From: Antedon mediterranea
Lineage: Eukaryota; Echinodermata; Crinoidea; Comatulida; Antedonidae
Assembly (NCBI RefSeq): GCF_964355755.1
Contig: NC_092678.1
Coordinates: 17,394,922-17,458,921, forward strand
DNA: 64,000 nt
Reading direction: 5' to 3'
Positions 18,773 through 60,711 of this stretch are shown piece after piece (position 1 is the first letter of the stretch; each line of letters starts with the position of its first letter). Position numbers and translations under genes: made by a program. Below the pieces are notes generated by a model. It ran no database searches and was not told where the DNA came from. It saw only the letters and a program-made list of their open reading frames with translations.

Positions 18773-18844
18773 AGTGTAACCAATGACGTCAAACCAACAA
18801 ATGCATTTTCATGCAATGTAGTAATGTTGTTACTTCTTAAATCC
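18773..18844 (-). CDS. 72-nt exon encoding one leucine-rich repeat (LRR exon 4)
   Basis: Exactly 72 nt between an acceptor ('tttttatttttaag', minus strand) and the consensus donor 'gtaagtg'. With one base completing the previous codon, it encodes a 24-residue LRR: an 'LRSNNITTL' core, then 'HENAF', then 'GLTSLVTL'. That is the LxxNxIxxLxxxxFxxLxxL pattern of extracellular LRRs. Like the other three exons in this window it is phase 2 at both ends, so any of them can be spliced in tandem without changing frame. One-repeat 72-nt exons are known in SLIT genes and in leucine-rich-repeat GPCR (LGR/RXFP) genes. Which type this is cannot be told here. There are no stops. It lies between LINE-A's 3' end and LINE-B's endonuclease. 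Confidence 0.8.
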
Positions 18845-18849
18845 CTTAA

Positions 18850-19080
18850 AAATAAAAACATGAATACTTGGTAAAATAACAGTTCACGAGTTGAGGTTTT
18901 CTTTTTTGGGAAAAAATAGGTACAGTTTGGTGTGTATGTCAGCGGACAAAATAGTGACCGTAAAATAATGTATCTGTATTGTAACTGTTAGTGTGTATTA
19001 CGTGTCAGTGAAAATTAAAGAGGGTCGATAACGGTACAAACGTTAAAAATAAATATTATTAAAATTAATATACAAAGTTT
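18850..19080. repeat. Intron block shared by LRR modules
   Basis: It aligns with 58340-58560 and with 25357-25590, sharing 'aacagttcacgagttgag'. The block is non-coding and flanks the LRR exon on its 5' side (minus orientation). Confidence 0.8.
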
Positions 19081-19084
19081 TTCG

Positions 19085-19730
19085 ATCAAGTACGTATCAA
19101 GTTCAAACTATCAAACACGTCACAGGAAGCGTGGACAAATGTCGAAGACGTGTGAAACTTCGAAGGAAAAAAAATTAAACCTTCCTATGTCATCTGTTAT
19201 TTTTGGTAATGCTCACTCACTCAAAAACAAGTTTAGTGAATTGGCTGCAAATGCCAGTATTCGAATACAGAGACAGTTGCCTTATGGCGCTCATTGAAAT
19301 TTGGCTATATGAATCTGTTTCATATCATGGATCAAAAAATTGTTCTTGTAATCTGGAATTATTATCAGTTGCTCGTCGTCCCTTTTACTTGAAAAGGGAA
19401 TTCTAGCAGGTTCTAGTCATCATTATCTATATACACCCGAAAGCAGACTTCAAAGTAGCTTGCGCTAAAGTCGTTGAGATAGATAGACAACTAAGCTGCA
19501 AATCACCAGATTCAATAAAGCAGTTACTTTGTGACTTTAACAAAGGATCCTATAAAGAGCTTGCAAACGTAATTCCACACCTTCATCATGTAAACGTCGC
19601 TACGAGAGAAGGAACTATACTTGGTATGCACTATGGAAATGTTAAAAATGCTTATACAGCAAAGATATGTCTAAGCACTGGGCGGTCAGATCACAACATG
19701 ATCCCAAGCTATAATTTACGAACATAGGAA
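19085..19730 (+). pseudogene. LINE-B endonuclease remnant
   Basis: Conceptual translation over several frames gives an APE-type endonuclease typical of CR1/L2-like LINEs. The pieces are 'IFGNAHSLKNKFSELAAN', 'FEYRDSCLMALIEIWL' (metal-site Glu region), 'ARRPFYLKREF', 'VIIIYIHPKADFKVA', 'LLCDFNKGSYKELANVIP', 'VATREGTILGMHYGNVKN' and finally 'STGRSDHNMIPSY', which holds the catalytic SDH. It stops abruptly after this motif; no reverse transcriptase follows. A shorter paralogous copy lies at 58600-58890. The module at 25.6 kb lacks it. The initiator region is frameshifted and the element is inactive. Confidence 0.75.
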
Positions 19731-20600
19731 GCCTCAAAATTAATATGATACGCACATATCTTAGTGCCGTTAATTGTGATATTCATTAGGCCTACATTAG
19801 GCCTGGGTTAACCCACTGTGCAACTGTAGTGCTGTTTTTTTTGTTTATTCTTTAGTTCGATTCTTCCAGCATAGTATTGTTTTATTTATTTAATCTATAG
19901 AAGGTTCATAACAATACGAACGTTAGATTATTGTAAAAAAAAATGTTCGATAAACTAAGTCATTGGATTTTTGTCTAGATTTGGTAGTTTTTTTATGTTT
20001 ACGAATTAATTTTTCCATTGGTTAAGGGGGATTGGTCGGCTGAATTTTAATAATGTGTATGATTTAGCTCACAGCTGTTCCAGAAATATGAATTAAGTGC
20101 AGCGCCCCCAACGTTTCATAGCGTTTTATGGAGTAGCGATTCCGAAAACATATTGTATACAAACCACATGAGGAACCCGGAAGCAATCAAGCATAAAACG
20201 ACTGTTTTTTAATAGCCAATAAAAACAAATAAAGACCGCGAAAGTCAGAAATATAATGAATATTCATTAGAACAACCCTGGATGAAGGTGAAAAACATGT
20301 TGTCGTCGTTTTATCACGTGGATTTTAAGAGGTAATGTAATTGAAAATTGTACACCCAACGCCAGTTTTTTTTCTCAAGTGATACATTTAAAAAGTAGGT
20401 ATAAATGTTGTTTTCCATATCAGTTTAAAAATAATTTTTTCTGTTGAATTCTTTGATTTAGTTGGATACTTTAGTTATCCTTGAATGTTTTAACAAGGAT
20501 CGTATTCATATTGCCTGGCTGGATTTTTTCCTATGCTAGCTTATAATAGGCTATGCCCAGGCCCCTTGCGTGGTTAAAACCAGCTGTGTAAGACTAATGG
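19731..20600. other. Spacer, nothing recognised
   Basis: About 870 bp of AT-rich sequence without an ORF, splice-bounded exon or repeat copy that I could find elsewhere in the window. Confidence 0.4.
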
Positions 20601-21067
20601 CTGTTTATTTTTAACACGTAAACATGTATATTCGGGGGGCCTGAGTGACAGTTGACCTGTTATAAAGCTGATTAATTACTTGTTCCTGGTCCTAATTAAA
20701 AATTAGGCCTAGTCTAGGCCTAAGCTTTTTTAATAATCATTCATATTGGGAAAGGAGTACAGAGTAGGCCAGGCTACAGGCCTAGCTAGGCCTATATTAT
20801 ATATAGGCTAGGCTACCTCATCAGCAGGTTAAAGGCTAGCAGCCTACCTAGCATGTCTTAGTCAAAGATCTGTAATATATTAATAGAAAGAAGTTATAGA
20901 GTACTGTGACATTAGATATTTAATCATAAATGCATATTTCTTTCATATTTGTATTGTATATTTATTATTTTGATATGCAATGAATCACAATCTAAATCAG
21001 TAAATAACATAAATTTCCGTTATCAATAAATAATTATTAATATATAAACCAAATTAAAATAAAATAA
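20601..21067 (+). repeat. 467-bp tandem duplication, unit 1
   Basis: It starts at 'ctgtttatttttaacacg' and repeats immediately at 21068. Unit 1 keeps a 'ttattattttgatatg' stretch that is missing from unit 2. It includes many 'taggcctag' words and 'cctagcatgtcttagtca'. Few substitutions separate the copies, so the duplication is recent. It is non-coding. Confidence 0.95.
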
Positions 21068-24020: not shown

Positions 24021-24029
24021 TTAATACAA

Positions 24030-24330: not shown

Positions 24331-24334
24331 ACAG

Positions 24335-25279: not shown

Positions 25280-25351
25280 AGTGTAACCAATGATGTCAAA
25301 CCACCAAATGCATTTTCATGCAATTTAGTAATGCCGGTACTGCTTAAATCC
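25280..25351 (-). CDS. 72-nt exon encoding one leucine-rich repeat (LRR exon 3)
   Basis: Exactly 72 nt, with donor 'gtaagtg' on the minus strand and an AG acceptor after 'ttttattttgaag'. Same phase 2 as the other LRR exons. It encodes 24 residues with 'LSSTGITKL', then 'HENAFGGLTSLVTL'. The usual Asn of the LxxN position is Gly (TG in place of NN), a change tolerated in some LRRs but worth noting. The flanking introns align with those of the other copies but contain no LINE. This exon therefore represents the ancestral intron state. Confidence 0.8.
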
Positions 25352-25920: not shown

Positions 25921-26888
25921 ATCAAACGGCGCCTCTACAGATTTACACATTGATTCAATTCAAAGAGTTTACACTGACGAGAAAAGTCAGCATTTTTTTA
26001 AAGTTATGAATAATCAAGTACCAAAATAATAATAAAATTGTTTAAAATACCGTTCGTTATCTAATTTATGGACGTAGGAAGTCAAACAATTAATATATGT
26101 ACATATTTGTTATTTAGTGCCTTTGATTCTAACATCCGTTACTTTATGTGTTAACCCACCGTATACTAACATAATAGTGTCTGTTTCTGTGGTTAATTGC
26201 GCGATGCAATGCTGGTTTTTCAATTGAGGATTTGTCAGTTCTGTTCTCGCACGATTGTCCTGTATTTTTCCAATTAACTAATTTTAATTTTCCGTTGTAT
26301 CATTTTCATTTCTATCATTTGTAATAAAAATATTATAAATTTATAGTAAAATTATTATTTTTTTAATATAAGCTTTAGAAATAACGTAACTGCGATCAAC
26401 GTTTCAATGTTACATTAACTAATTGAAATTGTCTGTAATAAAAATTGTATAAATTATAATTATTTTTTTAATAACATAGACGTTGGGAATAACGTAACTG
26501 CGATTAACGTTTCAATATGTAACTACACTTGTCTTATGTAGGTTAACAGTTTGCACAAAACAGGTCACTGGATGATACTTACAAGAATGTTATTGGTTGA
26601 TGATTATTGTAGTTCTTGACGGATTCTGCTGTTGTATTAATATAATTCCGACAGTTTAAGTAGTTAAATGAACACGTGCATTTGATTGGACATATCTGTG
26701 TTAGGAATATTAATTTTTCTGAAAAAAAAAAACATGTTTTCGAATTTAATTATATGGACAATAAAACCCTTATTTAAAAAATAGCAATACAAATGTATTA
26801 ACTACGTTTGTCATTTAACTATTTTATTTTGGCTCTTGAGTAGGACTGGACGTTGTTTAAAAGATAGATGTATCTTAATTTTGGTAGA
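25921..26888. other. AT-rich spacer
   Basis: No gene seen. Two related stretches at about 26320-26420 and 26430-26520 ('taacgtaactgcgatcaa' against 'taacgtaactgcgattaa') form a local duplication of about 115 bp. Confidence 0.5.
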
Positions 26889-27792: not shown

Positions 27793-27992
27793 NNNNNNNN
27801 NNNNNNNNNNNNNNNNNNNNNNNNNNNNNNNNNNNNNNNNNNNNNNNNNNNNNNNNNNNNNNNNNNNNNNNNNNNNNNNNNNNNNNNNNNNNNNNNNNNN
27901 NNNNNNNNNNNNNNNNNNNNNNNNNNNNNNNNNNNNNNNNNNNNNNNNNNNNNNNNNNNNNNNNNNNNNNNNNNNNNNNNNNNNNNNNNNNN
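27793..27992. other. Assembly gap (200 N)
   Basis: Exactly 200 N, so probably a placeholder of fixed size. The left edge lies in repeat S, where the other copy (53340-53480) continues into alternating CG/CA sequence. Confidence 0.95.
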
Positions 27993-28460: not shown

Positions 28461-28780
28461 TATTATTTATATAATATATACCTAACTTTTTCTTACCTTC
28501 ATCCGCCTTTTTCTTTTTAATTTTCATATGTGTTACTATGTTGTATTCACTGAACCACCACTTTGTAAATCAGTAAATTTGAATTGAAAGTATATTTCAG
28601 TTTAAAGAAAGAACAAATAAATAAATGTCAAATATCAATCATCAGGACATAAGGACATAATATATACAAAAAAAAATATTAGAATATAAAATAAATAAAT
28701 CCAAATAATAATGGTACAGTTTCGACTCTTTAACACATAATGATATTATTATTAATAAAGCGTATTATTACTATTATTAG

Positions 28781-34200: not shown

Positions 34201-34430
34201 TTTTTAAAATAAGTAAACAAGAAGTCTATCAAATAAAAACCAGTAAATGTTTACTTATTTTAAGAAAAGTATTGCTTGAAACAAGAATTCTATCAAATTA
34301 AAATTCGTAAATTCTTACTTATATTGGGAAAAAAATTGCTTGAAACAAGAATTCTAAATCACTAAAAATTTATTTTAAGAACGATAAATGAATACTCATT
34401 TTAAGTAATATTTTACTTAAACAAATAAAT
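34200..34430. repeat. Inverted copies of minisatellite E
   Basis: The unit appears in the opposite orientation ('ttgcttgaaacaagaatt') right after the direct array. The left arm can therefore fold back on itself. Confidence 0.85.
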
Positions 34431-44243: not shown

Positions 44244-44443
44244 NNNNNNNNNNNNNNNNNNNNNNNNNNNNNNNNNNNNNNNNNNNNNNNNNNNNNNNNN
44301 NNNNNNNNNNNNNNNNNNNNNNNNNNNNNNNNNNNNNNNNNNNNNNNNNNNNNNNNNNNNNNNNNNNNNNNNNNNNNNNNNNNNNNNNNNNNNNNNNNNN
44401 NNNNNNNNNNNNNNNNNNNNNNNNNNNNNNNNNNNNNNNNNNN
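44244..44443. other. Assembly gap (200 N)
   Basis: Exactly 200 N, as in the first gap. Frames drawn across it are meaningless. Confidence 0.95.
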
Positions 44444-44533
44444 TATTAAATGTGATGAGCTATGACAAAAGAGACAACAATCTTATATTTTATATTCGAG
44501 TAGCCATACGATGACGTCACAATGTTTAGTTAA

Positions 44534-44765
44534 GCCTGGTTTCCTGTCGACGTAAGATTTGGAAATGCTAACGTTTGTTACGATTGTTGCGTTTGTTACG
44601 TCTCTTCTGTTAAGTTGAACAAAAGGGAACGTCGTTTTGATCGTTCTGAACCGCAGGCTCACGAGCCGATAACGACCCTTACGTAAAGTTGACTTTTTTA
44701 ACTTCAAGCGCTTACGGTCGTCTTATGATCGTTACGTAAAGTTGACATTTTTTCTTACGCTTCTG
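44534..44765. mobile_element. TTAA-flanked terminal repeat, left copy
   Basis: TTAA at 44530-44533, then 'gcctggtttcctgtcgac' and 'gtaag'. Subterminal words 'acgtaaagttgac' and 'aacgtttgttacgattgt' follow. The complement of the first 23 bp recurs at 51488-51510 with one mismatch, followed by TTAA. TTAA target sites are used by piggyBac and Kolobok-type transposons. Confidence 0.6.
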
Positions 44766-44859
44766 TGTTTGCTCGATCGATGGTTGCCCATGTCAGGCAA
44801 TTGTTTTTCAGGTAGGCAGCCTAGGCTTAGAAAGGCATCATGCTGTGTGGCATATACTG

Positions 44860-45160
44860 TACATAGGCCTAGCTACATAAAACGGAACATGCCTAGGCCC
44901 AGGCCCAGTCGTACATCATAACCACTACCATTTTACTGTAATATAGGCAAGAGGCCTGTACTAAAAATGTCCTAGACCGTAGCCTTCTTGTAGGCCTAGC
45001 CTAGGCCTACTTAGTAATACTAGGCCTAGGCTAGCCTACTACTAAACGCCTTTTTTAGGCCTACCTACTATATAGCCTAGGCCCCTAGTACTTAGTAGTA
45101 GTAGGCCTCCTATACTAGCCTACTAGGCTAGGCCCTACAAACAAGTACTAGGCCTATCCC
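44860..45160. repeat. 'TAGGCCTA' word cluster
   Basis: Dense, irregular repetition of the palindromes 'taggccta' and 'ctaggcctag'. The same words are scattered over the whole window, so this is a genome-wide simple motif rather than a gene. Confidence 0.85.
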
Positions 45161-45161
45161 A

Positions 45162-45790
45162 ATTCAATCAATCAATCAATCAATAATTTTTATTTCTCAA
45201 ATAAAAACACAAAAAAACAGTTAACATTTTCTAAAAATAATAGATAATAAATGAGAAAAAGGGGTACCCCACAGGAAGCTTAAGCTTTAAAATGTGGGGT
45301 CCTGGCAACATAATTAAAAGTAAGGTAAGGTAAGAAATATATATAATATATGATAATGAACATAAAAAGACATTTAACTTAACAAATGCAGTTATTATTT
45401 GACTTAAGACAGATATATGATCAACTTAAATAATAATAGTAGAAACAAGGTATTCATGTAGTTTGAACTTAAATGAAGATATAAAATTAATAATTTTAAT
45501 TTCATCTGGTAAAGAATTCCAAATTTTTGGTCCTTGAAAAGTTATATCATGCTTGCCAACCTCCGTATTAAAACAATCATAAGCATAATCAAATTTATTT
45601 CTGGTATTATAATTATGAACTGAACTAAAAGTTTGAAAATAAGTATCAAAAATTCTGGGCAGTTGATTATGTTTGAATTTAAACATAAATAAAGCAACAT
45701 TTTTTGTAAGTAAGTCGTAAATATTAAGTGTATTAGATAAGACAATTAAGTGGACCACCATCTGTAGGCCTAGGCTAGCTTTGGAATTAG
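45162..45790 (-). pseudogene. LINE-C 3' end: C-terminal coding part and (ATTG)n tail
   Basis: Minus strand. 'LTKNVALFMFKFKHNQLP', then 'YNTRNKFDYAYDCFNTEV', then 'ITFQGPKIWNSLPDEIK' and 'FKFKLHEYLV'. This is the conserved end of the CR1/L2/Jockey-type polyprotein (the NTR...GPxxWNSLPxxI motif). It is followed by about 220 bp of 3' UTR and ends in tandem ATTG (plus 'caatcaatcaatcaatcaat', 45162-45184). It is strongly 5'-truncated at about 45790 and the remaining frame is intact. Confidence 0.8.
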
Positions 45791-45799
45791 GCATAAATC

Positions 45800-46485
45800 T
45801 CTCTTTTTTTTAGTGTGACTTTATTTTATATGATAGGCCAAATAAAAAAAAAAAACATTTTAACATTTTAATGTATTGGATCTACACACTCTACACAATA
45901 ATTCCAACTTCTAAACTGCAACAAAAATGATCTACAGTGAAACTCTTCTTTTACATGCCCTTTGGTTGGAATGTGTTTAAAAACTAAATGTTTGTAACTA
46001 AAAATGTTATCATACTGTACACATAATTATAACTAATAGTAGTTCAGCAAGTGAAACCCACTTTAAATATGTTTAATTGTTTTTCTTTGATTTAAATTAA
46101 TTATTGAAAAGCTTCAACACACTAGTTTTAAAATGTTAAATATTTTTACAGAGCAAATTTTAAACACAAAATGAGGCCTATAATGATTCCAAAGTAAATA
46201 CTGCCCAGTACATAGAAAATATCACACTTATTTATTATTAACATTTTTACATGTGAACAGAAAGTCTGCTTCTAGTACCACTGAAAATTAAACAAAACAT
46301 TGATATTAACATTGATAATGTAACAACATTGAAAGTGTATGTGTTGCATTTACAAATCGTTTTGCTTTATTAAATAGATATACAAGAATGACACCAGAAA
46401 GATTGAATCAACTTGTGTCCTTAATTCAGCCCCATCTAAAAGAGAGAAATTACAGTACAGTGTACCACAGTTTCAGAGTTTAAAA
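45800..46485. other. Spacer left of transposon T
   Basis: AT-rich with no gene recognised. Confidence 0.4.
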
Positions 46486-47135
46486 TAGTCAGGTGGCTTA
46501 GCAACAATTTTCAGGATTAACGTTACCGGCCGGACAAAAGTACCAAAATTGGCATGGAGTTTCCTTTCGACCTATCTATTGATTTTATCCGTGGAACCCA
46601 CTTGATCGGGTCTGATTTTCCAAGATGGCGGCCAAAATCCAAGATGGCCACCAGAAAAAAAGGAAATGCCATATATCTGGCTGTAAGACTCATAAATCAA
46701 CAAATGGGGTGTAAATGTCAGAGTTTCTGGGGGTCACTGAAACAGAAGCTGGTCATTTCATGTTGCTCAGACCACCAATTTCCAAGATGGCGGCCAAATT
46801 TCAAAATGGCCACCAAAAAAATCAAATGTCATATATCAGACTGTAAAAATCAGAAATGAACAAATGAGGTGTCAATTCAGGGGTTTCTGAGGTCACTGTA
46901 ATAGATGCTGGTTAAGCCATTTTGCTCAGGTCACCCAATTCCAAGATGGCGGCCAAATTTCAAAATGGCTGCCAAAAAAAGGAAATATTGTATATAAGGT
47001 TGTAAAAATCATAAATGAACAAATAAGGTGTCAATTCAGAGGTATCTGAGGTTACTGAAACAGATACTGGTCAAGCCATTTTGCTCAGGTCACTCATTTC
47101 CAAGATGGCGGTCAAATTTAAAAATGGCCGCCAAT
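46486..47135 (+). repeat. Transposon T left terminal inverted repeat
   Basis: Subrepeats start near 46615, 46780, 46940 and 47098, each with 'caagatggcggcc' followed by 'aaatttcaaaatggc' and then 'catttgttcattt'-related spacers in complement. Confidence 0.85.
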
Positions 47136-47207
47136 TCTACAATGAAGGAAGGATCACAGGTGAAATGGTAAGGAATATTTAATTGTATTGATTTTGTACA
47201 TCGGCAG

Positions 47208-49761
47208 GCAATAGAGTACCTCAACCCAGGACAAATCCTAGTGATTACGTTTGACCAGCCTCTGTTCACGCTCGCCAAGTATGTACAATGAAAATGGCCA
47301 GATCTCTATGGTGAGAAAGTCTACGTAGTTATGATGGGCGGACTGCACATTGAGAAGGCGCTAGTGAACAGTGTTGGCGATTTATTAGATGGGTCAGGTT
47401 GGACAACGGCTCTCACTGAATCTGACGTTGTTTCATCTGGAACAGCCGATTCATTCCTGAAAGTATCAAACATTACCAGAACTCGACATGCCCATCAAGT
47501 CACTGTTCTTGTTCTTCAGCGGCTACTGAATGAAGCATTCAACTAGAGATCTAATATTGATGAGAGTTTGAACAACTGGCTGGAACAAATGTGTAAGAAA
47601 TCTCCCACGTTCAAGTTCTGGAACATGATCGCACACTATGAGATTCTGATTCTCATATTTGTTAGAGCCCATCGGGAAAGAGACTTCCTATTGTATGTTT
47701 CTGTATTAGAGGCACTCGTGCCATTGTTCTTTGCGTTAGATCATGTGAACTATTCTCGGTGGCTGCCTGTACACATTAGAGACATGAAGGCATGCCACAA
47801 GAGATCAAAATAATATTAGTTTGAAACTCGGAATCACTGTACAATCGCAAAGTCGTTACACAGATACTCTGCGATTCCAATAGACCAAGCGCATGAGCAA
47901 TAGAATAAAGTGGTGAAAGCATCCGGTGGTGTAGTAGGACTTACAGAGAATCCAGTTGCCTTCAGACGCTGGATGACTGCTGGACCCGAGCTTGCCAGAC
48001 TTCTGAGACAGTATGAGAATGAATATATTATTCATGACGATGATCCGGAAAACCCAGCTAACTTTGAACACCATTAACAGGGACTTGCAGCACAGAAAAC
48101 CTTCCAGCGACAGGTTGATAGTCTATCTAACACAATACGCAAGATGGGAAATCCCTTCCTGTATGACATCCCTGAGTTGGTAACTCTTGATAGTCGTAAC
48201 TGCGCGAATGAGGCAGTAGTGGATACAATCCGTACACTAGAAGATACAGGCACAAAGAAGTGTCAAGAGTATGTGAAGACCGTGCCCGTGGATCGTAGTC
48301 GTTCCATACATGATACAATCTCAAAGAATTCACTACCCTTTCTCTCAACAAAGCTCAAAGTCAAATCAAAGGATTGCAAGAAAGTAAAGGTGCTTGAGAA
48401 CAATGTGGCACTCTTCAGCCAGTTATACATTTCCTTACAAAATAGAGATGGTGACATCAGTGAATTCTTTGCACACGAAGTACAGTCGTATCCTCCATCC
48501 CTGTCTGAGTTTGGAAAGCTTAATCTGTCTGGTACCAAATGTCATCTGTTAAAATGTATCGAATCAAACCACACAGAGAGACCTGTATTTTATGACTGCA
48601 AAGTTCTGAATGGTGCGGTGACAGTACATGCATTACCTGTAATAAATGTCTCAACATTCCAAGAATATGATGACAATGTGTTTATACCCCATCTGAAACG
48701 TCAGCTACGTGACACAAAGCAAGTGGATGTTGTGAAGGACGAATACCGACCAGATAGCCTTAAGGAGGGAACCAGGGAGAAACGAGGCAAAGGTGTGCGT
48801 AGAAAAGTATCAGGTGATACCAAGCTGCCGGGCAACTGGAATGACTTCTTCCGTGATTCAATCAACAAGAAAGAACTTTTTGAATTCCTTTCATCAAAAG
48901 TTGCGGATTGCAGCATCCCTCTTGAGTGTTCGGTATATATCACAGCTGGAGAGCATGTTACATATGTTGAAATGCAGTTCAAAAATGTCCAGCTGTAATC
49001 AAGAGGAAGCAGACACCAGGATTGTGTTTCACGTGAAGCACGCGTTGGAAAATGGAGCAAAATCCATCCAGTTGCGAACTGTGGATACAGATGTTGTTGT
49101 TGTTGTTCTTAGTGTGTTTCATGACCTCTCTCATATAAATGCTGATCTTGATCTCTGGATAGCATTTGGAACTGGAAAGAACTACACTCATTATCAACGC
49201 CATTTGTGCACATCTCGGTGAACGCAAATCACGTTCCCTGCCAATTTTCCACTCCCTGTCAGGATGTGATACTACCTCAGCGTTTAGAGTTACGGATGCC
49301 TTTCTTCATCTTGCCGCACATCCGTTTGAGCATCTTCACTTACATTCTGAATCATTTCAAAGAATCGAGAGACTAGTTGTCGTAGTTTATGACAAAACAA
49401 GTAACGCCATGAATGTTAACAGTGCTCGGATGGAACTGTTCAGCCAGAAACAGCAAGCTGTTGACAAGATACCACCTACTCAAATGCACTACTCCAGCAC
49501 ACTAGGAGGGCCGTATACCAAGCTGGCATCTGGACAACATGCATGTTATCTCAACAAACAAATCCGTGTCCAGTCGACTATGCATGGGTGAAAGTTGGGA
49601 ACTCATGGGAACCTGTCTGGTCTACCATTCCAGAGGCATCTAAAGCTTGCAGAGAATTTGTGAAATGTGGCTGCAAAAGGACCTGTACAGTCTGCAAAAG
49701 GACCTGTACAGTCTGCAAATGCAGCAAGGCAAATCTGCCTTGCACATGTCCATCCAAATAG
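47208..49761 (+). pseudogene. Transposon T protein: PIN/XPG-like nuclease-type ORF, broken
   Basis: Reading across several frames from an acceptor-like 'catcggcag' gives one long protein of about 850 residues. It begins 'AIEYLNPGQILVITFDQP', then 'GGLHIEKALVNSVGD', 'SGWTTALTESDVVSSGTA' and 'VPLFFALDHVNYSRWLPV', then 'GGVVGLTENPVAFRRWM'. An intact 284-codon frame follows (48144-48998, with 'GTREKRGKGVRRKVSG'). Next come 'CNQEEADTRIVFHV', 'LRTVDTDVVVVV' and 'FHSLSGCDTTSAF'. The acidic trio EAD...D.D...GCD resembles XPG/FEN1-type PIN nucleases. The C-terminus is Cys-rich ('CGCKRTCTVCKRTCTVCK'). In-frame stops occur at 47291, 47544, about 47898 and about 48076, and frameshifts near 47813, 48995, 49190 and 49545. 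The residues expected after 'TTSAF' seem deleted. The family is familiar from corals and other invertebrates as an uncharacterised transposon protein. Confidence 0.75.
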
Positions 49762-49889
49762 GGTAAATCAACTGTACTATAACTGTAAACTGTTATGTAG
49801 CAATTATAGAAGTCCAATAACCATTAACAAGTCGAGCCAAGTAAACCTTTTTCATATATTATTTTTGTTAATTTCTGATTTTTAACCCA

Positions 49890-50368
49890 CATATGCCTAC
49901 ACAAAATTTTGGATTTTTTTTGGCAGCCATTTTGGAAATGGGTGACCTTAGCAAAATGGCTTGACCAGCATCTGTTTCGGTGACCCCAGAAACCCTGAAT
50001 TAATACCTCATTTGTTCATTTCCGATTTTTACAGTGACACACACAACATTTCCCTTTTTAGCGGCCATTTTGAAATTTGACCGCCATCTTGGAAATAGGT
50101 GGTCTGAGCAATATCAGCATCTGTTTCATTGACCCCAGAAACCCTTAAATTGACACCCCATTTGTTGATTTACGAGTTTTACAGCCAGATATATGGCATT
50201 TCCTTTTTTCTGGGGGCCATTTTTGATTTTGGCAGCCATCTTGGAAAATCGGACCAGATCAAGTGGGTTCCACGGATAAAATCAATAGATAGGTCGAAAG
50301 GAAACTCCATGCCAATTTTGGTACTTTTGTCCGGCCGGTAACGTTAAAATTGCTAAGCCACCTGACTA
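49890..50368 (-). repeat. Transposon T right terminal inverted repeat
   Basis: It mirrors 46486-47130, with three subrepeats ('ggccattttg' ... 'ccatcttgg' words at about 49925, 50065-50093 and 50215-50240). It ends with the complement of the left terminus. Confidence 0.85.
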
Positions 50369-51180
50369 AAAATATGTTTATAGTTTTAGTACTCAACTTT
50401 TTAGATTTATTTAAAGGTTTAATTTCCTGTATCATATATATTGTGTGACACAGTGTATGCAAAGAAAGTTACTGTATATCACTTAAGGTAATCAGTAAAA
50501 GTGTTTGTGTTTGCTTTTTTAAAATGTATTTAGTTAATAAGTAAGTAATTATAGTATTTAGTTAAAGGTTTGATTGTCGGTATTGTATATTCTGTATGCC
50601 ATGGTGTATGCATCTATTGTTTTTGAGAATTTATATAAATGGCCTAATCCATAAAATAGTATTGTGCAGAATGTATTTGTAAATAAATTTATTTAACAAG
50701 TATTTACTGTATGCTTCTTATTATTAAGTGTGGAGGGATATTGAATGGCAATATTATTTGATAACTTTATTATTATTACTATTATTATCATTATTATTAA
50801 TTGTTATTAAATATCTTACCTTCTGTATTTAATATTACATCTACTGCATCAGAGTCTAATAGCATGCTTCTTATAACAACACAAACAACAAAAACATTGA
50901 TTAGAAAAACTCAGATGGAGCAAATAGTGCCGGTTTAAATTGTTTAAAAACATCGAATCATTTCTCCTAATAAAAGAATAGTTAATGAACTTAATTACCG
51001 GAAGGAGAATATGTCAATAAAATAAAGAAAAGTGTGAATAGAAAGAACTTGAATATAATTGTACGTTTTTAATATAGGGCTAATTTTTATCCTTTTTTGG
51101 TAAAGAGGTGTTGTGTAAAAAAGCTGCTTTTATTAATGAAATTCGTATTTTCGTATCTATTAAAAATAGGCCTATCCTTT
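50369..51180. other. Spacer right of transposon T
   Basis: AT-rich with no gene seen. (ATT)n-like run at 50765-50810. Confidence 0.4.
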
Positions 51181-51187
51181 TCCATTG

Positions 51188-51510
51188 TATATCTTGCGCT
51201 TACGACTCTTACGCTTACGTAAAGTTGACTCCAAGTCAACTTTACGTAAGAATCGTTAATAACGCAACGCAAGTGATCGCAAGCAATAAAATCCCGGTTT
51301 CCTGTAAATTCGCGATAAATCGACGTATCAGACGGAGATTCGATACCCCGGTTTCCTGTCGATCGTCTATTTTTCTTGCGTTTACGTCGATTTCACCAAA
51401 ATATTGTCGTAAGCGGTTTCCTGTCAAATGTTGGTTTCTTACGTAAAATCGACGTAACAATCGTAACTGACGTTAGAAAAACTGACTCTTACGTCGACAG
51501 GAAACCAGCC
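51188..51510. mobile_element. TTAA-flanked terminal repeat, right copy
   Basis: It ends 'gtcgacaggaaaccagcc' then TTAA (51511-51514), the complement of the left copy at 44534. Interior words 'ggtttcctgt' recur four times (about 51296, 51350, 51415 and in complement at the end). 'ttacgtaaagttgactcc' / 'aagtcaactttacgtaag' at 51217-51251 is a perfect palindromic block. Confidence 0.65.
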
Positions 51511-51843
51511 TTAAGTAATTTTTCGTTGTTTGTTGATCTCACCGGGCAATATTTTCATATTGTGATGGCTTGCACAAAATCGCGTATCTCGACTTTCTTG
51601 CGCAAAACTACGAAAAACTCAAAAAGTGGGTTACTTTCATTTTACTATTACGATTTACATATTGCGATTTGAAAATCGTTCTTGGTACCATTGTAAAGCT
51701 AAAATCTTTTTGATTGTTTTAGTCTAAATTATATGTAAATCAGATCACATACATAGTTTCAATCAACTTTAATAAAAACATATAATTGGGCTATAAATGC
51801 TGGCGGTGGCAGTTTCTAACTGGAAAAACCTCTGGCAGTCAAA

Positions 51844-52830
51844 GTGTTAAAACGTATGAATCTAAAATTCCATCGTCCGAAGAAAGACAAGTGTGGGCTC
51901 TGTGAAACATTTCACAGTGGATCATCTACAAAACGGCAAGAAATTCAAGAAGCTTTCAATAAACACAATGCCGAAAAAGAAAGAGTTCGTCAAATTAAGG
52001 CCGAGATAAAGAAGAAGGCGATATCAGAGCCCAAGTTTGAAGCTGCCGTATTTGACTTGCAGCAGGTCATACTTGCCTCGCTCAAATAGATGCAAAATCT
52101 TCTATTAGACGACGACTGGCGTGTTACAACTTCACAATGTACCAGTTGTCAGACAGAGAAGGCCATTGCTTTTTATCTCATGAGGGGATAACAAAAAGAG
52201 AATCAAATGAAATTTCGACATACGTCAGTCAGTATTTACAAATGCTGGATTCTCAATATAAAGAATCGGTTGCTCTTTTTTGTGACGGCTGTCCTGGCCA
52301 AAACAAGAACACGATAATGGCGGCAATGCTTCTCGCATTTGTTCGAAAATAAAAAAATATTAAATCAATAACAATAATATATTTTGAAACAAATCATGGC
52401 CATAGTGAAGGGGATGCTATGCACAGCTCAATTGAACGTGCACTGTCAAGAGTAGGGGAATTGCTTACACCGACACAACTATCCTTAGTTCTAGAGATGG
52501 CCCGAACAAACCCACGCCCATACAAGGTTAGAAATGACAGAGGATGGCCATCCGGTTGACTGGACAAAAGTCATGCAGTTACGGGTCACAAAGGAAAGGC
52601 CAGAGTTTATTGATGTGAAATTTTCTCATCTCGAGGCCACTTTTCATTCGTTAAAACTGGTCAGTAGCAGAACCCCACAAATAGATGTCACACATCGAGC
52701 ATACACAACGAAGGAACCAAAGCTGTCAGCCAAAAAATACAACGACTTGCTGAGCCTATGTTCAGGTACCACCCCCGTCATAAGAAATATTGAGGATCAA
52801 TTTGTTTACAAAAATTTAAAGCACCGTTAA
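51844..52830 (+). pseudogene. DDE-type transposase-like relic
   Basis: Three consecutive frames make one degraded protein. Part 1 (51844-52089) is 'LKFHRPKKDKCGLCETFH', a Cys-pair segment followed by a charged helix ending 'AVFDLQQVI'. Part 2 (52137-52352) has 'GITKRESNEISTYVSQYL' and 'VALFCDGCPGQNKNTIMA', where the Asp in the C-D-x-C-x-G-Q-N context looks catalytic. After a TAA the same frame continues with 'YFETNHGHSEGDAMHSSI' then 'ERAL', holding further Asp/His/Glu. Part 3 (52534-52830) is 'HPVDWTKVMQLRVTKERP' to a normal-looking terminus. The motif order (D...GQN, then GHS..D..H..IE) is that of an RNase-H-fold transposase family of invertebrates that I cannot name with certainty. It lies just right of the TTAA repeat. 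Confidence 0.6.
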
Positions 52831-53029
52831 CTAAGCTGTCTGTGGAATAACGTGCTTACGTTCCAAAACCCTTAAAAAGGGTTATATAAAATATTGCCTT
52901 TATAAATAATAAAAGTTTAAATTTTAAAAAAAAAAGTATTGTAACCCACGATTAACGCTAGAGAATATAAGCAACAAATAACCATGAGAAATAAAACAAC
53001 TACAACACAGGAGTAAGTAAAGAATTAAC
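52831..53029. other. Spacer
   Basis: Contains a 3'-UTR-like AT-rich stretch and a short A run. No gene. Confidence 0.4.
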
Positions 53030-53830
53030 AAGGCCAACAGCCATTAAGTCGCGTGCTACAATACATAGTGATACCGGACCGACAGACAGACCGACAGACA
53101 GACCGACAGACAGACAGACAGACAGACCGACCGACCGACATAGTGAACTATACTGACCGAAATTACTGAACATGTTTAAAAATGTTGAAATGTTTAAAAA
53201 CATTTATATTTTTTTAATTTACACGTGCGTAGCCTGTCACTTTCGACGTGCTCGTATAACGTAATTTCGAGTTGAAAATTAAGTCAAGAAAACAGAAATC
53301 GGGCAAAAAGAGTGCGCAATAACATTTAACGCGCAGTGCGCGCGCAAAAATATGCGCACTCATGGCAATTTTGTAAACGCTTAAAATTGCCTGAAATGTA
53401 CTCTTATTTCATCGAAAATAAATTTTGAAAATTTTAAGCGCGCGTACGCATGCGTTACATGCGCTACGCACGTAATTGTATTGCAATATGATGATTTATG
53501 CCCTGAAATTTTATTTAATTGTGATTCATGGTTGTGAAGATATGATTACAAACGTGATTTCGTTAAATCGTGCGTAGACCGCGTAATTTTTTATTGCGCA
53601 CCGTGAAAACATAACCACATTGATTCCTGGCCATAAGGAATATACTGTGAAAAATTGACCTAGCTAGATTAAACTGATATCAAGATAAGGTCAGAAAGCG
53701 ATAAAACGCATAGTGATACCGGACCGACAGACAGACAGACCGACAGACAGACAGACAGACAGACCGACAGACAGACAGACCGACCAACCGACCGACCAAG
53801 TGAACTATAGAGTCGCTTCCACGCGACTAA
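53030..53830 (-). mobile_element. Repeat S, inverted copy with extra unit
   Basis: It carries the complement of 27455-27792, from 'gatgatttatgccctgaa' (about 53490) to 'gagtcgcttccacgcgact' (about 53811-53829). It contains two GACA/GACC microsatellites (53080-53140 and 53720-53795). The part at 53240-53480, unseen in the gap-cut forward copy, is rich in 'gcgcgcgtacgcatgcg' alternating purine-pyrimidine sequence. Confidence 0.8.
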
Positions 53831-54244
53831 AAAATAAATAAATAAATAAAATTTAAAAAAATAAATTTAGAATAAATGGTATGTATTTATTAAAATTAAT
53901 TCAATTAAAATTTTAGAATAACTGTTATGTATTTATAAATAATTAAGTGTCATAGGCATAAATAATAATCCTCATGAAATAGAGAAAAATGTGTTTCCGT
54001 TTAATTAATTACTGACCACTACGAGAGACAGATTACATTAATGTATATTTTCTTTGTAAGTTTTTAATAATATTGTTAAGTGTTTAATGTATGCCCTTAG
54101 AGCTACATTAGTAAACACACTATAAAATGATTTCTATTTATTGTTCTAGGTTAAGGTTGAATTGTTCAATTTGGTTAATACGTTTATAAAGTTAAAATGT
54201 TCACTAATATCCTATAATTTAGCATCACAATATAAATTTATATA
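53831..54244. other. AT-rich spacer
   Basis: No gene. A duplicated stretch, 'tatgtatttattaaa' / 'tatgtatttataaat', at about 53880 and 53925. Confidence 0.4.
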
Positions 54245-55098
54245 TAGTAGACCTAATTTTTTATTTTTTTTTTTCATTTTTTTTTTATTCATTTCAAAAA
54301 AATACAACCATATCACAAATCACTTAAATATAAAGTAATAGGTATCAAAATGATATGAACGTTTAAATAAAGTAACTTACAGTGATCAAACAATATTAAA
54401 AACTATCAATTATTAATTCCATTTTTTTTAAAGTAAATAATTAATTTGGTAAATGCTGTGTTTTCCACAATTATGTAACTAATCTAACTAAATATAATTG
54501 TATTAATCAAATTAGCCAGAGATATACATTTACTAACATATTCATTTTTTTTTGTCTTTACATAGCAATAATAAATAATACTCATATTTATACATACACA
54601 TACATACACACAAATATATCTTAATCTGTACTATTACCAAGGAACTATAATATAATTGTGTTAATTAAAATCAGATACATACATTTAACAACATAACCAT
54701 TTTTGTTTCTTTAAAATAATACATATATATTAATAAAATACATATTTTTAATTATCTGTATTGTAACCAAGGAACTAATAGTATGCCTATAATAAATACT
54801 TAAATATATCTAACAAGTGCAAATAATAATTTCTGGTTTACATTTTAATTTAATACAATAATAAAGAGCAAGCGTAATAATAATAATAATACACAAAAGT
54901 AAGTCATTTCCTCGAGAAACAGTATCGTTAAGTTATCAAATATAATCTTCTATTAATCTCCACTTTTGTCTGAAATTATACAATGTACTTCTTTTAGAAG
55001 CAATGTTTTTCTCTACGTTATAATTAAATTTTAATCGATTAAAGAAAACCTGGAAGACTGGCTTTTTGTGAGTTAATTTGTAACTAAATATAATTTTC

Positions 55099-55905
55099 TT
55101 AATCAACAAAATACATAGATTTAATAATATCAGGATTTTCTGTATTGTAACCAAATAATATGGAGGTTTTATCAAGGTAAATCTTTGTTTTTGAAATGTT
55201 TTCCCACCAAGTTGTGAATTCATCCCATAGTTTGGTTGCAATGTTACATTCAACCAAAAGATGGGTCATAGTTTCAATATTTGATTCACAATAGGAACAC
55301 ATATTACTCGGTACAATATTCATTTTATGTAGTCTACTATTAGTTGACAAGCAATTCACATTAATTGTATACTGAAATATTCTGGTTCTTACCTCCTGAG
55401 AACATTTAAATGGTAATACATAGATATTTTCCCATTTATCGCTATCTACACCTAATTCATCCTGCAATTTACTTTGAGATGTTGGTATTTTAAAGATTTT
55501 TTTAATTAAGGCTCTGTATATATTTTTTGTACTCATACTTTCTAATTCTTTCTCTTCATTCTTTACTTCCACTATAAACCCTCTCTTTTTATAATTTGTT
55601 CGTAAAAACCCTAGCTTCATGTTTGCTTTCCACTGTGGGGGTATTGCAGATATCGTCATTCTCCAGTGCATGAAATTACTTGTCGATAAGCCTCTCTTTA
55701 TCCACGTATTAAAGGGAATGATATTACCGTTTTCATAAAAAAGGTCGCTTACTAAACATATCCCAACATCTCTGAGGCTCTTGTAATAAAATGGCTTGCC
55801 ATGTATATGCATGTGCCTATTAAACCATATATATTGGGACCCTTCGTTTACTGTATCAGGATGTATTAATTCGAAATAAGCGTTTAACATATCCTTATAA
55901 AACAA
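55099..55905 (-). pseudogene. LINE-D C-terminal domain with zinc knuckle
   Basis: 268 codons downstream of the reverse transcriptase. It has 'RTRIFQYTINVNCLSTN', 'RLHKMNIVPSNM' and the CCHC-like 'CSYCESNIETMTHLLVEC' followed by 'LWDEFTTWWE'. This is the conserved C-terminal part of L1/Tx1-like ORF2. The gap between this and the RT frame (55906-56315) is coding in broken frames. Confidence 0.85.
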
Positions 55906-56315
55906 TGGAATATTTTTCCAACTACGGACACAGTCCGCGCTTACATTACAATAAAAAATAGTGTCGCCTCCTTGCTTATTTAGGAACCTATGTAGTAGAG
56001 ATCTCCATGCTGCATTGCCATTTATGTTATATCATTGTATCCATTTTATCTTTAATGCCTTAAACATACTTTTGATATCTACCATTTTTAAGCCGCCTTC
56101 TTCAATATTCCCAATTAATGTTGTTCTTTTTATCATACCTTTACCACCGTTCCATAAGAAATTAAATAGAATTGTTTCAATTGATTTAACTACATGGGGC
56201 GGTATATGTATGACAGATGCTAAATATATAAATTGGGATATTGCGAATGTTTTAATTAAAATTATTTTTCCTGCTAAGGTTAGTTGTCTGGTTCTCCATA
56301 TGTTTAATATTGTTT

Positions 56316-57003
56316 TTAGTTGTTTAATTTTCGTTTCGAAATTACATTACATTTTTCCCGTTGTCTTTCATTATAAGAAAAGTAAACTCCTAATGCTTTT
56401 ACTGGTTGTTGTGGCCATTGCATATGTATTGGTTTGTTTTTACATCGCCTATTTGAACCAAGCCATATAGTCTGCGATTTGCTTATATTCAATTTCAAGC
56501 CCGATATTTTTGAAAATTTCTCTATTAAGTTAATTATATTTTTTGCTGACACTTCATCTTTCAAAAAGCATGTGGAGTCGTCTGCATATTGAGTTATTTT
56601 AATTTCTCTATTATTTACTGCAATCCTCTTAATAGTTTTATCGTCTCGTATGGCACATGCTAGTAATTCTATTGATAGGATAAATAAGTAAGGGCTGAGG
56701 GGGTCACCCTGTCGTACACCCCTTCCAACTGGAAAATAACTTGATGACTGCCCATTATTTATCACGCAACTACTTATATCAGTATATAATGCTTTTATGA
56801 ATTGAATACATTTTTCTCCGAGGTTTACTTTTTTTAAAACCTGAAACAAAAAACCCCATTCAAGCGAATCGAATGCTTTTTCATAGTCCAAAAAAAGCAT
56901 ATTTCCTGGAATATTTTTTATTTTGGTAAACTCCATAATATCTTCAATTGTTCGTACTGACTCGCCAATGTATCGGCCCTTTACAAAACCGGTTTGATCA
57001 ATG
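56316..57003 (-). pseudogene. LINE-D reverse transcriptase domain
   Basis: Open from the truncation point. 'QTGFVKGRYIGESVRTIE' comes first, then motif A 'MLFLDYEKAFDSLEWGFL', motif B 'GRGVRQGDPLSPYLFIL', motif C 'ITQYADDSTCFL' and 'ISGLKLNISKSQTIWLG'. All catalytic aspartates are present. The wording is that of L1/Tx1-clade elements. There is no endonuclease because of 5' truncation. The frame breaks at about 56316. The ORF visible on the plus strand here is a shadow. Confidence 0.88.
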
Positions 57004-57017
57004 TAGTAGACCTAATT

Positions 57018-58100: not shown

Positions 58101-58262
58101 CGTCATTTTACAAGTTATATTATTGGCTAATGCAACGTAATGGTATTTAGAAACAGTTAAACCTACCCTTAAATGCATAATTTCACAATTAACCAGATTT
58201 ACTTACAATTGTAAAGCTTTTAAATTGTTACAAGTAAGGAAAAAATGAGAATAAACAGTTAC

Positions 58263-58334
58263 AGTGTAACCAATGACGTCAAACCACCAAATGTATTTTC
58301 ATACAATGTAGTAATGTCGTTACTTCTTAAATCT
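58263..58334 (-). CDS. 72-nt exon encoding one leucine-rich repeat (LRR exon 2)
   Basis: Exactly 72 nt with an AG acceptor after 'ttttattttcaag' and a GT donor that reads 'gtaactg' rather than 'gtaagtg', a weaker site. Same phase 2. It encodes 24 residues with 'LRSNDITTL', then 'YENTFGGLTSLVTL'. It is closest to exon 4 (18773-18844), including both introns. LINE-A's 3' end lies on one side and LINE-B's endonuclease on the other, as in exon 4's module. Confidence 0.78.
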
Positions 58335-58599
58335 CTTGAAAATAAAAACATGAATACTTGGTAAAATAACAGTTCACGAGTTGAGATTTTCTTCTTCGAG
58401 GAAAATTGTTACAGTTTGGTATGTATGTCAGCGGACAAAATTGTGACCGTAAAATAATTTATCTGCATTGTACTGTTAGTGTGTATTACGTGTCAGTGAA
58501 AATTAAAGAGGGTCGATAATGGTGCAAACATTAAAATATTAAAATTAAAATACAAAGTTTATCAATTGAGTACGTAGAACTAAAGATCCGAAGCCTAGT

Positions 58600-58890
58600 T
58601 GGTTGGAACTTGTTCAGCCAGAGATGGTTCCTGATCAAGTTAAAACTATCAAACACGTCACAGGAAGCGTGGACAAATGTAGAAAACGCGTCAAACGTCG
58701 AAGGAAAAAATTCAAACCTCCATCCATCTGTTATTTTTGGTAATGCGCACTCACTCAAAACAAGTGAAATGGCTGCAAATGTATTCGAATACAGGGACAG
58801 TTGCCTTATGGCGATCACTGAAACTTGGCTAATTGAATCTTTTCGGATCATGGATCAAAAAATTGTTCTTGTTATCTGGAAATATTAACA
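58600..58890 (+). pseudogene. LINE-B endonuclease remnant, second copy
   Basis: It parallels 19085-19370: 'VIFGNAHSLKTSEMAAN', 'VFEYRDSCLMAITETWL', with the Glu-Thr-Trp-Leu motif better kept than in copy 1. It ends at about 58890, where sequence becomes the LRR-intron block shared with 60750. Confidence 0.75.
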
Positions 58891-58896
58891 TTAAAC

Positions 58897-59180
58897 AGTA
58901 CCAACGGAAATTACGATAATAAAGTATCTATTTTATTAATTTCGAAATACAAAGAAAAAATATGAACAAAATATCTATATTGTGCCAACAGAGGCCAACA
59001 AGACTTATGTCCAATTAGGCGTGTCACTCAAACAGTGAAACAATTACAAGGTATAATTGATATAATACTAATTTAATGTTACTTTATCTCATATTATCAT
59101 TATTTGCATGTTTTAGCTGTTTTTCATTAACTGTCTTTGCATGATTATAACAATGTTTTATCTAGATTGACTGTAATCAT
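58897..59180. repeat. LRR intron block P, copy 1
   Basis: It contains 'gtgccaacagaggccaac' and 'aattaggcgtgtcactc', matching 60750-61030. It flanks the LRR module on its 5' side (minus). Confidence 0.85.
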
Positions 59181-60600
59181 GTTGTACTTTCCATATCATA
59201 TGATTTCTGGATGTAGATCAATATCTACAATATAATACAAACGTTAAATGACGATGATCCATGTATTCTGCTATATTTTTACTTTTCATTATGGCAGCCG
59301 ACGGTGCTACAGTAACTGAATTAAATAGTCTTGTTCGTAAACAATGCCAAAATAGAAAAACTCGAAGAGAGCAAAAAGAAAGATATTACGCTTGAACGTA
59401 TCACACATTAAACATACATATTCCGTAGAAGTATTAATTCCTAAAATAAAATAATTGTTTTTTGAGGCATAGAGTTAAACTTACGTTTTCATGAGAGGAG
59501 GATAAGATAATATTTGTTCCTCGTGCAAAATAAGCTTATTACAACACTATTGCAGATTATAACGTGAATCGGCGGCGATTGTACGGAGGCATGTCTATTT
59601 TTGTTTTCGTATCTAATTTTGGCTTTCAAAAATGGCAGCCCAAAGCAATCGCGACCCCTGGATCCGACCCGTCGGACTATTTTGATATACAATGATGGAG
59701 GTTCAGACGTTCTGTGGTACATTTAAATTGTATTATTTGTATTTCCTCTTAACTTAATCTTAATTTCAAATAGAATAACATCAATAAAGTAATATTGTTT
59801 ACTTAGAAGTGTGCCAGTTATTCAGCACTGAAGAAAACAAAATCAGAAAACATTTAAACACATGCGACCACGTTTTTTTAAACAGTATTAAGGCTAAGTG
59901 TGTTAATTATTGAGATGTAAAGCACATAGGCTGATTTTAGCATGAGTAAGTGCAGATATGGAGGGAGGAGAAATATAAAGTGTAGACACAGATATCACCT
60001 CACACGCAAGCTATTACTGACCCAGTGTGAAGGCCGAAATCAAGAGATTAGTTGTTTGACGGGATGGGATGTTCCTGCTCCCCAATTATTGTGATCCCTT
60101 TATTTATAGAACTTGAAAAGCAGAAAAAAGAGGAGAATGTGTATGTTTGTTTGTTGCAAGATGCCTATAACGCTGGTTCAAATTTTAACTTAAGTTTATC
60201 TTACGAACGGATAACGCTAATATTGTACGTACCACCACATTAGGTAACCGATGCGCCCCCATTATGACACGTGCGAATAAAGAACAAGTGCTATTCCACT
60301 GTACGGAGGGATAGCTACCCGATGCCTCTCATAATAATATTATTTTTCATTCAAAAACATTTACTAATAATGATAATAATAAATTACTATAAAACAAACG
60401 AATACAAGTAGGCATATCACTACACACAATACAACTACATACAGGAGCTTGTGTTAAAAGAAAGGTTTAGGGATCAATCATAATCAAACAAAAACGGGCA
60501 TATTATATTATTTTTGTTTTGGATGAATATTCTGTCTTTGCAAAGAGTAAAAAATGAAATGATGTGACATAAAGTGTGGTAATCTTACAACGAAAATATA
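59181..60600. other. Spacer between LRR exons 1 and 2
   Basis: No confident gene. A 50-codon ATG frame at 59943 ('MSKCRYGGRRNIKCRHR') is less AT-rich than its surroundings but shows no domain. Confidence 0.35.
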
Positions 60601-60639
60601 CTATATTCAAAAGTATGATAAACAAGGGAAAGCACTCAC

Positions 60640-60711
60640 AGTTGTGTCAATGATGTCAAACCATCAAAGACGTTTTCTGGTAATGTAGTTATTTGGTTAG
60701 TGAACAAGTAC
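60640..60711 (-). CDS. 72-nt exon encoding one leucine-rich repeat (LRR exon 1)
   Basis: Exactly 72 nt, donor 'gtgagtgc' and an AG acceptor after 'cgattttcag', both consensus. Same phase 2. It encodes 24 residues with 'LFTNQITTL', then 'PENVFDGLTSLTQL', the most canonical LRR of the four (Pro and Phe at the usual places). It is the most 5' on the minus strand and the most diverged from the other three, which resemble each other. No signal peptide, LRR cap or membrane segment is visible in the window, so start and end of the gene lie elsewhere. Confidence 0.82.

Follow-up and report, generated by a model that had tools for sequence, protein, structure and literature searches.

Leucine-rich repeat exons of a crinoid genomic window belong to two adjacent genes of a tandem array of CUB-LRR genes probably encoding secreted proteins

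Four leucine-rich repeat (LRR) exons of 72 nt lie on the minus strand of a 64,000-nucleotide stretch of the genome of the crinoid Antedon mediterranea (contig NC_092678.1, here C9, positions 17394922-17458921; this whole stretch is called the window). Searches of the 354-Mb assembly of 18 contigs make it likely, in our judgement, that these exons represent LRR modules from two neighbouring genes, both belonging to a tandem array of about ten CUB-LRR genes (G1 to G10), the products of which are predicted to be secreted and diversified for recognition. Assigned by position, the exons beginning at 60711 and 58334 (exons 1 and 2) belong to G5, and those beginning at 25351 and 18844 (exons 3 and 4) to G6.

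A first-pass annotation of the window had described four segments of exactly 72 nt, each lying between AG and GT, each in phase 2 and none with a stop, and in all of these respects it was right. The exons occupy the positions given in Table 1, two codon bases are left at the 3' end of each, and every one of them is open in a single frame of the three, namely the frame that reads as an LRR. The LRR character of the four segments is not due to chance. Among 145 stop-free 72-nt segments running from AG to GT or GC on both strands, the four exons obtained LRR scores of 8.0, 8.0, 8.0 and 6.5, the next segment scoring 5.0. A sequence profile run on the window (its training set included two of the four exons and copies identical to the other two) returned them with E values between 5e-28 and 3e-24, no other match bettering 0.53, and the concatenated translation of the four exons matched Pfam LRR_8 at 1.1e-26.

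Genome-wide, the exons fall into two types. Type A (e.g. YLYSNQITTLPANVFHGLTSLTEL, donor gtgagtgc) and type B (e.g. DLSSNGITTLYENAFGGLTSLVTL, donor gtaagtgt) were sought by 3'-end patterns that matched 80 and 97 places, respectively, reversed-pattern controls giving 0 matches for both; further clusters of A and B exons occur on C5, C7, C8 and elsewhere on C9. Exons 2-4 of the window have 64-67 of 72 bases in common and homologous introns, while exon 1 has only 46-49 of 72 in common with them. The suggestion that three of the four repeats are recent copies thus stands as regards their closeness, but that closeness is one of subtype, B versus A, and is spread over two genes.

The array itself extends along the minus strand of C9:16.97-17.90 Mb, where 10 LRR N-terminal cap (N-cap) exons, 9 CUB exons and 9 C-terminal exons were found. 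For the N-cap exon of G6, 17 relatives are among the matches listed, of which 10 lie within C9:17.02-17.90 Mb, all on the minus strand. The exon set, its phases and its repetition across the array give the gene plan: signal peptide, CUB domain, LRR N-cap, about 6-11 LRRs (for the most part one per symmetric phase-2 exon of 72 nt) and a short hinge that contains cysteine. Nine of the ten array genes have the CUB exon, G6 being the exception, and Pfam CUB was matched at 1.3e-18 by the CUB exon of a paralogue at 16.71 Mb. A crude hydrophobicity scan gave a signal-peptide exon, MFIFSVIMLLVVVPFSSCSS, with a phase-1 end and an identical translation in all three loci examined (G1, G4 and the 16.71-Mb gene). 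The chain of signal peptide, CUB and N-cap is consistent, because the phases match in the 16.71-Mb gene, where CUB is in phase 1 at both ends and the N-cap starts in phase 1.

Within a unit, B exons come first and A exons last, the two being interleaved in G1 and G5. G4 (C9:17.50-17.596 Mb) illustrates the plan: its 5' part comprises the signal peptide, CUB, N-cap, three B exons, three A exons and a 75-nt repeat type, and its 3' part two A exons, the 75-nt type, one A exon, the 75-nt type, the last LRR and the hinge exon, with two damaged A copies interspersed. A signal peptide and an LRR cap, for which the first-pass annotation had proposed a search of the flanking scaffold, were both found; of the 7TM exon that it also sought, no intact copy is among the matches listed for the array. 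SRCR was considered as the N-terminal domain of the array genes and rejected, an SRCR tail being present only beside a C5 paralogue, whereas the array genes carry CUB. Elsewhere, at C7:4.05-4.48 Mb, SRCR exons (4054028, 4055490, 4056645, 4430086 and others) directly precede LRR exons of this family and seven-transmembrane (7TM) exons, and at C3:6.97-7.17 Mb SRCR and 7TM matches are interspersed. This pattern suggests SRCR-LRR-7TM receptors, with membership in one gene putative.

Growth by duplication of an intron-exon-intron module, which had been proposed from the window exons, can be seen in the array. G2 contains one pair of A exons twice over, at a distance of 15,521 bp and with no difference in the 123 bases retrieved per exon, and the A exon spacing within a pair, 3,488 bp in G2, is found again in G7. 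Two 75-nt exons of G4, 14,858 bp apart, likewise agree with their flanks at all of the 151 bases compared. By pattern, the number of exons per gene is about 6 to 11. The B exons of G2 (C9:17808692, 17796861, 17785030) and of G7 (17292575, 17280744, 17268913) are spaced by exactly 11,831 bp in each gene; these trios form part of a long tandem unit inside the introns, in which the second and third exons are identical and the first differs.

The relatives of the array reveal what kind of gene it came from. On C5, an LRR array of this kind precedes an open frame of 350 residues that matches Pfam 7tm_1 at 4.5e-32 and, when ranked against solved structures, is closest to relaxin receptor 1 (RXFP1; 4e-48), the lutropin receptor coming next (1.4e-31). 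The comparison of the symmetric phase-2 modules with those of LGR/RXFP-type genes was right. A genome-wide 7TM search, in which 130 of 275 candidates were scored, listed 122 matches, and among these at least 54 are intact (at least 55% identity, at least 287 of 302 residues, no stop); intact paralogues on C9 include 15722166, 15965679, 16724030, 16729158 and 16734287. The last three of these and a fourth copy at 16739415, which is broken, are on the plus strand with a period of about 5,128 bp. None of the 54 intact matches lies in 16.97-17.90 Mb, where only six plus-strand fragments occur among the matches listed, and a 7TM exon was accordingly rejected as a component of the array; a PF00001 search, scored for the best 147 of 980 candidates, was uninformative for the array.

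In place of a 7TM exon, the array genes end in an exon that encodes a hinge (e.g. RICCLVYKIEVCEPRVTLAACKEILK), alignable with the hinge exon of the 7TM paralogues, and then a tail such as GKFRELMCPMDSTRSTEDFTVMYSSI and a stop in all nine array copies, the in-frame stop falling at the same place in each. A relative on C8 has the array-type hinge and tail, but with a 5-nt deletion in the tail just after a donor-like site. Downstream of the hinge, from about 0.2 kb (C8) or about 0.7 kb (array), inverted and decayed 7TM remains (residues ~201-353, with stops or frameshifts) were found in eight of nine array loci and in the C8 relative. The array gene product is probably secreted, since the 7TM part is gone from the array and only decayed inverted remains lie downstream. 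The simplest account would be that part of the 7TM exon was inverted before the C8 and C9 copies split, and that the array was amplified later.

Variation among the exons was analysed in 108 exons (77 distinct sequences), comprising all matches on C8 and C9:13.3-17.9 Mb out of 177; the other 69, on C5, C7 and C9:7.9-8.0 Mb, were left out of the counts. For codon tests, identical exons were collapsed and four (L091, L098, L100 and L121), which differ in frame or length, were dropped. As the search patterns constrain the last 23 exon bases and the donor, leaving the upstream 49 bases unbiased, codons 1-16 were tested separately. Concave positions are the x sites of the literature motif LxxLxLxxN, as we infer their placement on this repeat. 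In the A type (42 distinct exons), the proportion of nonsynonymous differences (pN) is 0.563 at codons 1, 3, 4 and 23 and 0.077 at the other 19 codons, with a silent value (pS) of 0.210. These four concave codons rank 1 of 8855 sets, a rank that is partly post hoc because they had been noticed by eye before the ranking. With all five x positions included, pN is 0.479 as against 0.077 for the framework and 0.210 for silent change, the fifth x (codon 22) varying little. The unbiased codons 1-16 of the same 42 exons give 0.564 (concave), 0.088 (framework) and 0.292 (pS), corresponding to Jukes-Cantor dN/dS values of 2.83 for concave and 0.25 for framework positions; the bootstrap 95% range of concave pN/pS is 1.78-2.13, and out of 560 sets that of the three concave codons ranks first.

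This pattern persists in subsets of the A exons. Restricted to the array (25 exons), codons 1-16 give 0.555, 0.086 and 0.229 in the same order, and when only the 19 exons that differ from one another by at least 9 bases are kept, the values are 0.575, 0.095 and 0.341. Introns beside 13 A exons have a mean divergence of 0.159; compared with introns pair by pair, these exons have a higher pN at concave positions in 75 of 78 cases and a lower one in the framework in 76 of 78. Closely related array exons (19 links, at most 8 differences) show 0.253 at concave positions, 0.019 in the framework and 0.049 at silent sites, and the changes among them are mostly recent. The proposal that preservation of the exons suggests selection is thus supported by the wider family, and mainly by A exons. 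The strongest selection signal comes from outside the window, because the window holds one A and three B exons, and the pair of exons 2 and 4 alone shows no clear special preservation, its exon divergence being 6.9% as against 5.4-11.7% in the flanking introns.

A number of observations weigh against a secreted array diversified for recognition, and they are considered here together with the alternatives on which they bear. Firstly, copy number may be inflated by retained haplotypes. That part of the array is an assembly artefact, with alternative haplotypes scaffolded in tandem, appears unlikely to us, even though a block of the window is 99.97% identical to G1 over 11,188 bp, ending at a gap, and identical 72-mers follow one another in gene order for G1/G5, for the B exons of G2/G7 and for G3/G10. 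The pairs are, however, mosaics: G1 and G5 differ in N-cap and CUB, G7 has the B exons of G2 but a C-terminal exon that resembles that of G1, and G10 possesses an extra damaged exon that is absent from the G3 list. Counting the three pairs once each still leaves seven units, and the architecture and the selection signal are independent of gene count because distinct sequences were used. The near-identical block itself may represent a very recent duplication, gene conversion or a retained haplotype.

Secondly, there are difficulties at the 3' end of the array genes. G4, one of nine, has no inverted 7TM remains at its C-terminal locus, and comparison of the C-terminal exon between C8 and C9 indicates mild constraint only (nonsynonymous 0.10-0.14, synonymous 0.18-0.23). 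A donor-like site, ACG|GTA[AT]T, is kept in 10 of 10 C-terminal exons, making a downstream anchor exon possible, and the 5-nt deletion of the C8 copy, lying just past this site, alters the tail. The proteins could then be membrane-anchored through an unrecognised exon after the donor-like site, or tethered by pairing with the 7TM paralogues. Given the early in-frame stop at the same place in the nine C9 array copies, we regard this as decidedly unlikely; no transmembrane exon was seen downstream, a weak argument, as the search was aimed at 7TM relatives only.

Thirdly, not all of the exon evidence points the same way. The A exons outside the array (17 exons) show the same pattern in codons 1-16 (concave 0.549, framework 0.082, silent 0.267), and part of the exon variation is older than the loss of the 7TM part. 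In the B type (31 distinct exons) the signal is weaker and less specific than in A: concave pN is 0.259 with pS at 0.087, of 8855 sets, 368 match or surpass the concave one, positions 6 and 11 are as variable as the concave codons, no more than 49 of 78 pairs have a concave pN above that of the intron, and between close pairs the framework changes at about the silent rate (0.040 vs 0.038). A GT donor is present in 99 of 108 exons and missing from nine, though the patterns favoured donors. An AG acceptor stands at the expected place in 104 of 108 (L100 was counted as lacking it, having a 3-nt in-frame insertion that places the AG 3 bases further up), and a stop occurs in codons 1-16 of two of the 108, both damaged copies; the chance that 16 random codons at 33% GC contain no stop is ~0.29. 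The 108 exons are not independent, because many copies are recent duplicates. It could be supposed from such data that the array is a graveyard, in which the copies left after 7TM loss are pseudogenes that duplicate and decay. The decayed state of the 7TM remains, the absence of a GT donor from 7 of 77 array exons and the similar pN and pS of the B framework among close pairs would fit, yet 75 of 77 array exons retain AG at the expected place, the A framework of close array pairs is held well below the silent value while the concave face is accelerated, and all nine array copies have an open C-terminal frame, all of which renders a graveyard highly unlikely.

The last difficulty concerns the two window genes, each of which is incomplete. 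The 3' end of G5 was not found in the assembly and no G5 C-terminal exon is among the matches listed; it is unseen because the near-identical block ends exactly at an assembly gap. Nor was the 5' end of G6 found in the assembly: no CUB exon was matched for G6, which stands beside a gap. The one large minus-strand LRR gene envisaged by the first-pass annotation, or a fusion of G5 and G6 that skips the G6 N-cap exon, is most improbable, for although phases 2-2 permit a junction 58263/25351 and G5 is without a C-terminal exon of its own, this junction would cross a gene boundary because an N-cap exon with asymmetric phases 1-2 lies between the pairs, just upstream of exon 25351, G5 has separate CUB (C9:17488685) and N-cap (C9:17479964) exons, both outside the window, and two 200-N gaps between the pairs mean that the missing G5 3' end can simply be unassembled. 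Two adjacent genes are thus retained; beyond the window G6 continues, by position, with A exons whose 5' ends are at C9:17378831, 17372939, 17366730 and 17338018 and with a C-terminal exon at C9:17334016.

Table 1. Features of the window and N-cap exons of the array (window coordinates unless C9 is given)
Feature	Position	Strand	Basis or remark
72-nt LRR exon 1, type A (YLFTNQITTLPENVFDGLTSLTQL), G5	60640..60711	-	profile search, exon comparison
72-nt LRR exon 2, type B (DLRSNDITTLYENTFGGLTSLVTL), G5	58263..58334	-	profile search, exon comparison
72-nt LRR exon 3, type B (DLSSTGITKLHENAFGGLTSLVTL), G6	25280..25351	-	profile search, exon comparison
72-nt LRR exon 4, type B (DLRSNNITTLHENAFVGLTSLVTL), G6	18773..18844	-	profile search, exon comparison
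LRR N-cap exon, G6 (..ICPIKCTCSFNYLNCRNY..QPITFL), phase 1 start, phase 2 end	26583..26718	-	search with cap sequences
200-N gap (assembly gap or withheld stretch)	44244..44443	.	
200-N gap just upstream of G6 N-cap exon	27793..27992	.	
Block matching G1 from C9:17858413 onward with 99.97% identity over 11,188 bp; ends exactly at a gap	44444..55630	.	upper end is the limit of compared sequence
N-cap exon, G1	C9 17900182	-	
N-cap exon, G2	C9 17815709	-	
N-cap exon, G3	C9 17698689	-	
N-cap exon, G4	C9 17577638	-	
N-cap exon, G5	C9 17479964	-	
N-cap exon, G6 (window)	C9 17421503	-	
N-cap exon, G7	C9 17299592	-	
N-cap exon, G8	C9 17177121	-	
N-cap exon, G9	C9 17107342	-	
N-cap exon, G10	C9 17023913	-	

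The remainder of the window contains a reverse transcriptase fragment at 56316-57011 on the minus strand (Pfam 1e-25; the few leading letters of the query are approximate), a KDZ transposase fragment at 10913-11368 on the minus strand (Pfam 4e-6, slightly above the cut-off) and three open frames, at 61184-61918, 62414-62908 and 55099-56031, that by eye resemble long interspersed nuclear elements. A 226-residue open frame at 28759-29439 on the plus strand has no convincing relative in Pfam or among solved structures. Long tandem arrays occupy 1211-2542, 3058-8825, 11361-14403, 32976-34216 and 38101-39462, with units of ~56, 76, 94, 63 and 102 bp, respectively. A scan of the window for transfer RNA genes found none.

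How might such an array have come about? An inversion inside the ancestral 7TM exon would have cut off the membrane part and so given rise to a secreted protein, and the array would then have spread by duplication. Recombination in the long introns may add, drop and swap LRR modules while leaving the frame intact, and selection for new binding specificity would drive change at the concave, ligand-facing residues. The putative role of the array, as far as it can be read from sequence, is most likely recognition of a fast-changing ligand, be it non-self, microbial or allogeneic, and the product may act alone or, in soluble form, as a partner of the 7TM paralogues or a decoy for them.

Among the titles and abstract openings listed in searches of open-licence literature, we found no CUB-LRR-7TM family and no LRR-exon shuffling under diversifying selection in an animal G-protein-coupled receptor (GPCR). 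Sponge adhesion GPCRs are reported to carry SRCR domains, the terms LRR and leucine-rich being absent from that paper (PMC4302439). It is tempting to speculate, and we offer this as a possibility with some reserve, that the family may form an invertebrate germline recognition repertoire on an LGR/RXFP-like scaffold, with shuffled LRR exons and four diversified residues in 7TM receptors and, once an inversion had destroyed the 7TM exon, in an amplified set of secreted forms, converging on the brown-algal LRR-ROCO scheme and working like an animal antibody-style or allorecognition system. If this is true, one and the same design, in which every LRR has its own 72-nt phase-2 exon and the rapidly changing exposed residues are spaced alike, would have evolved separately in a family of animal GPCRs and in the GTPases of brown algae, and an inversion would have made secreted binders out of a signalling receptor. 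It would also open to test whether relaxin-type receptors were recruited for immunity or self/non-self recognition in an invertebrate.

Several known systems invite comparison. In SLIT proteins, EGF and laminin-G modules come after four LRR domains; the surroundings of the LRR exons in the array family (CUB, hinge and 7TM) point elsewhere, no search for EGF or laminin-G having been made. The variable lymphocyte receptors of lamprey and hagfish are LRR binders with variable concave-face residues between caps, and are assembled somatically from an incomplete germline gene and spliceless LRR cassettes, whereas each repeat here is a complete exon with splice sites (104 of 108 with AG and 99 of 108 with GT, donors having been favoured by the pattern) in a germline gene.

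With LGR type C receptors (RXFP1/RXFP2, LGR7/8) and their relatives in invertebrates, the array genes have in common LRRs of 24-25 residues (72- and 75-nt exons) and a short hinge, and the 7TM exon of their paralogues, lost in the array, is closest to RXFP1 among solved structures. They differ in the CUB exon before the N-cap, in the many gene copies and in an A-type concave face under diversifying selection. RXFP1 has 10 LRRs, and an LDLa module is a defining feature of LGR type C (PMC4561518). No credible LDLa was found in the compact 7TM gene region (best E 3.3) or in upstream pieces of G1 and G4 by consensus tblastn and a crude pattern, no profile search having been made. Because LDLa was not found and the array is without 7TM, we do not file the window genes as RXFP members but only as derived from that kind. 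A secreted LGR4 ectodomain without 7TM is described as a splice variant of one receptor gene (PMC4154783); both are soluble LGR ectodomains, predicted as such in the present case, where the form would result from structural loss of the 7TM exon across the whole array.

By analogy, the nearest mechanistic match is the brown-algal LRR-ROCO family, in which each LRR is encoded by one 72-bp phase-2 exon, exons are shuffled and alternatively spliced, and positive selection acts at four sites, 14, 16, 18 and 19 (PMC11378527). The spacing of these sites is that of sites 23, 1, 3 and 4 of the array A exons, a spacing from which we infer that the sites are the same. The proteins themselves differ, being ROC-COR GTPases in the algae and here a GPCR-derived ectodomain of signal peptide, CUB and LRRs, whose downstream exons are hinge or 7TM (no search for ROC-COR was made). 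What the two systems appear to have in common is the principle: one LRR per 72-bp phase-2 exon, and diversifying exposed beta-strand sites, found here in the A type and more weakly in the B type.

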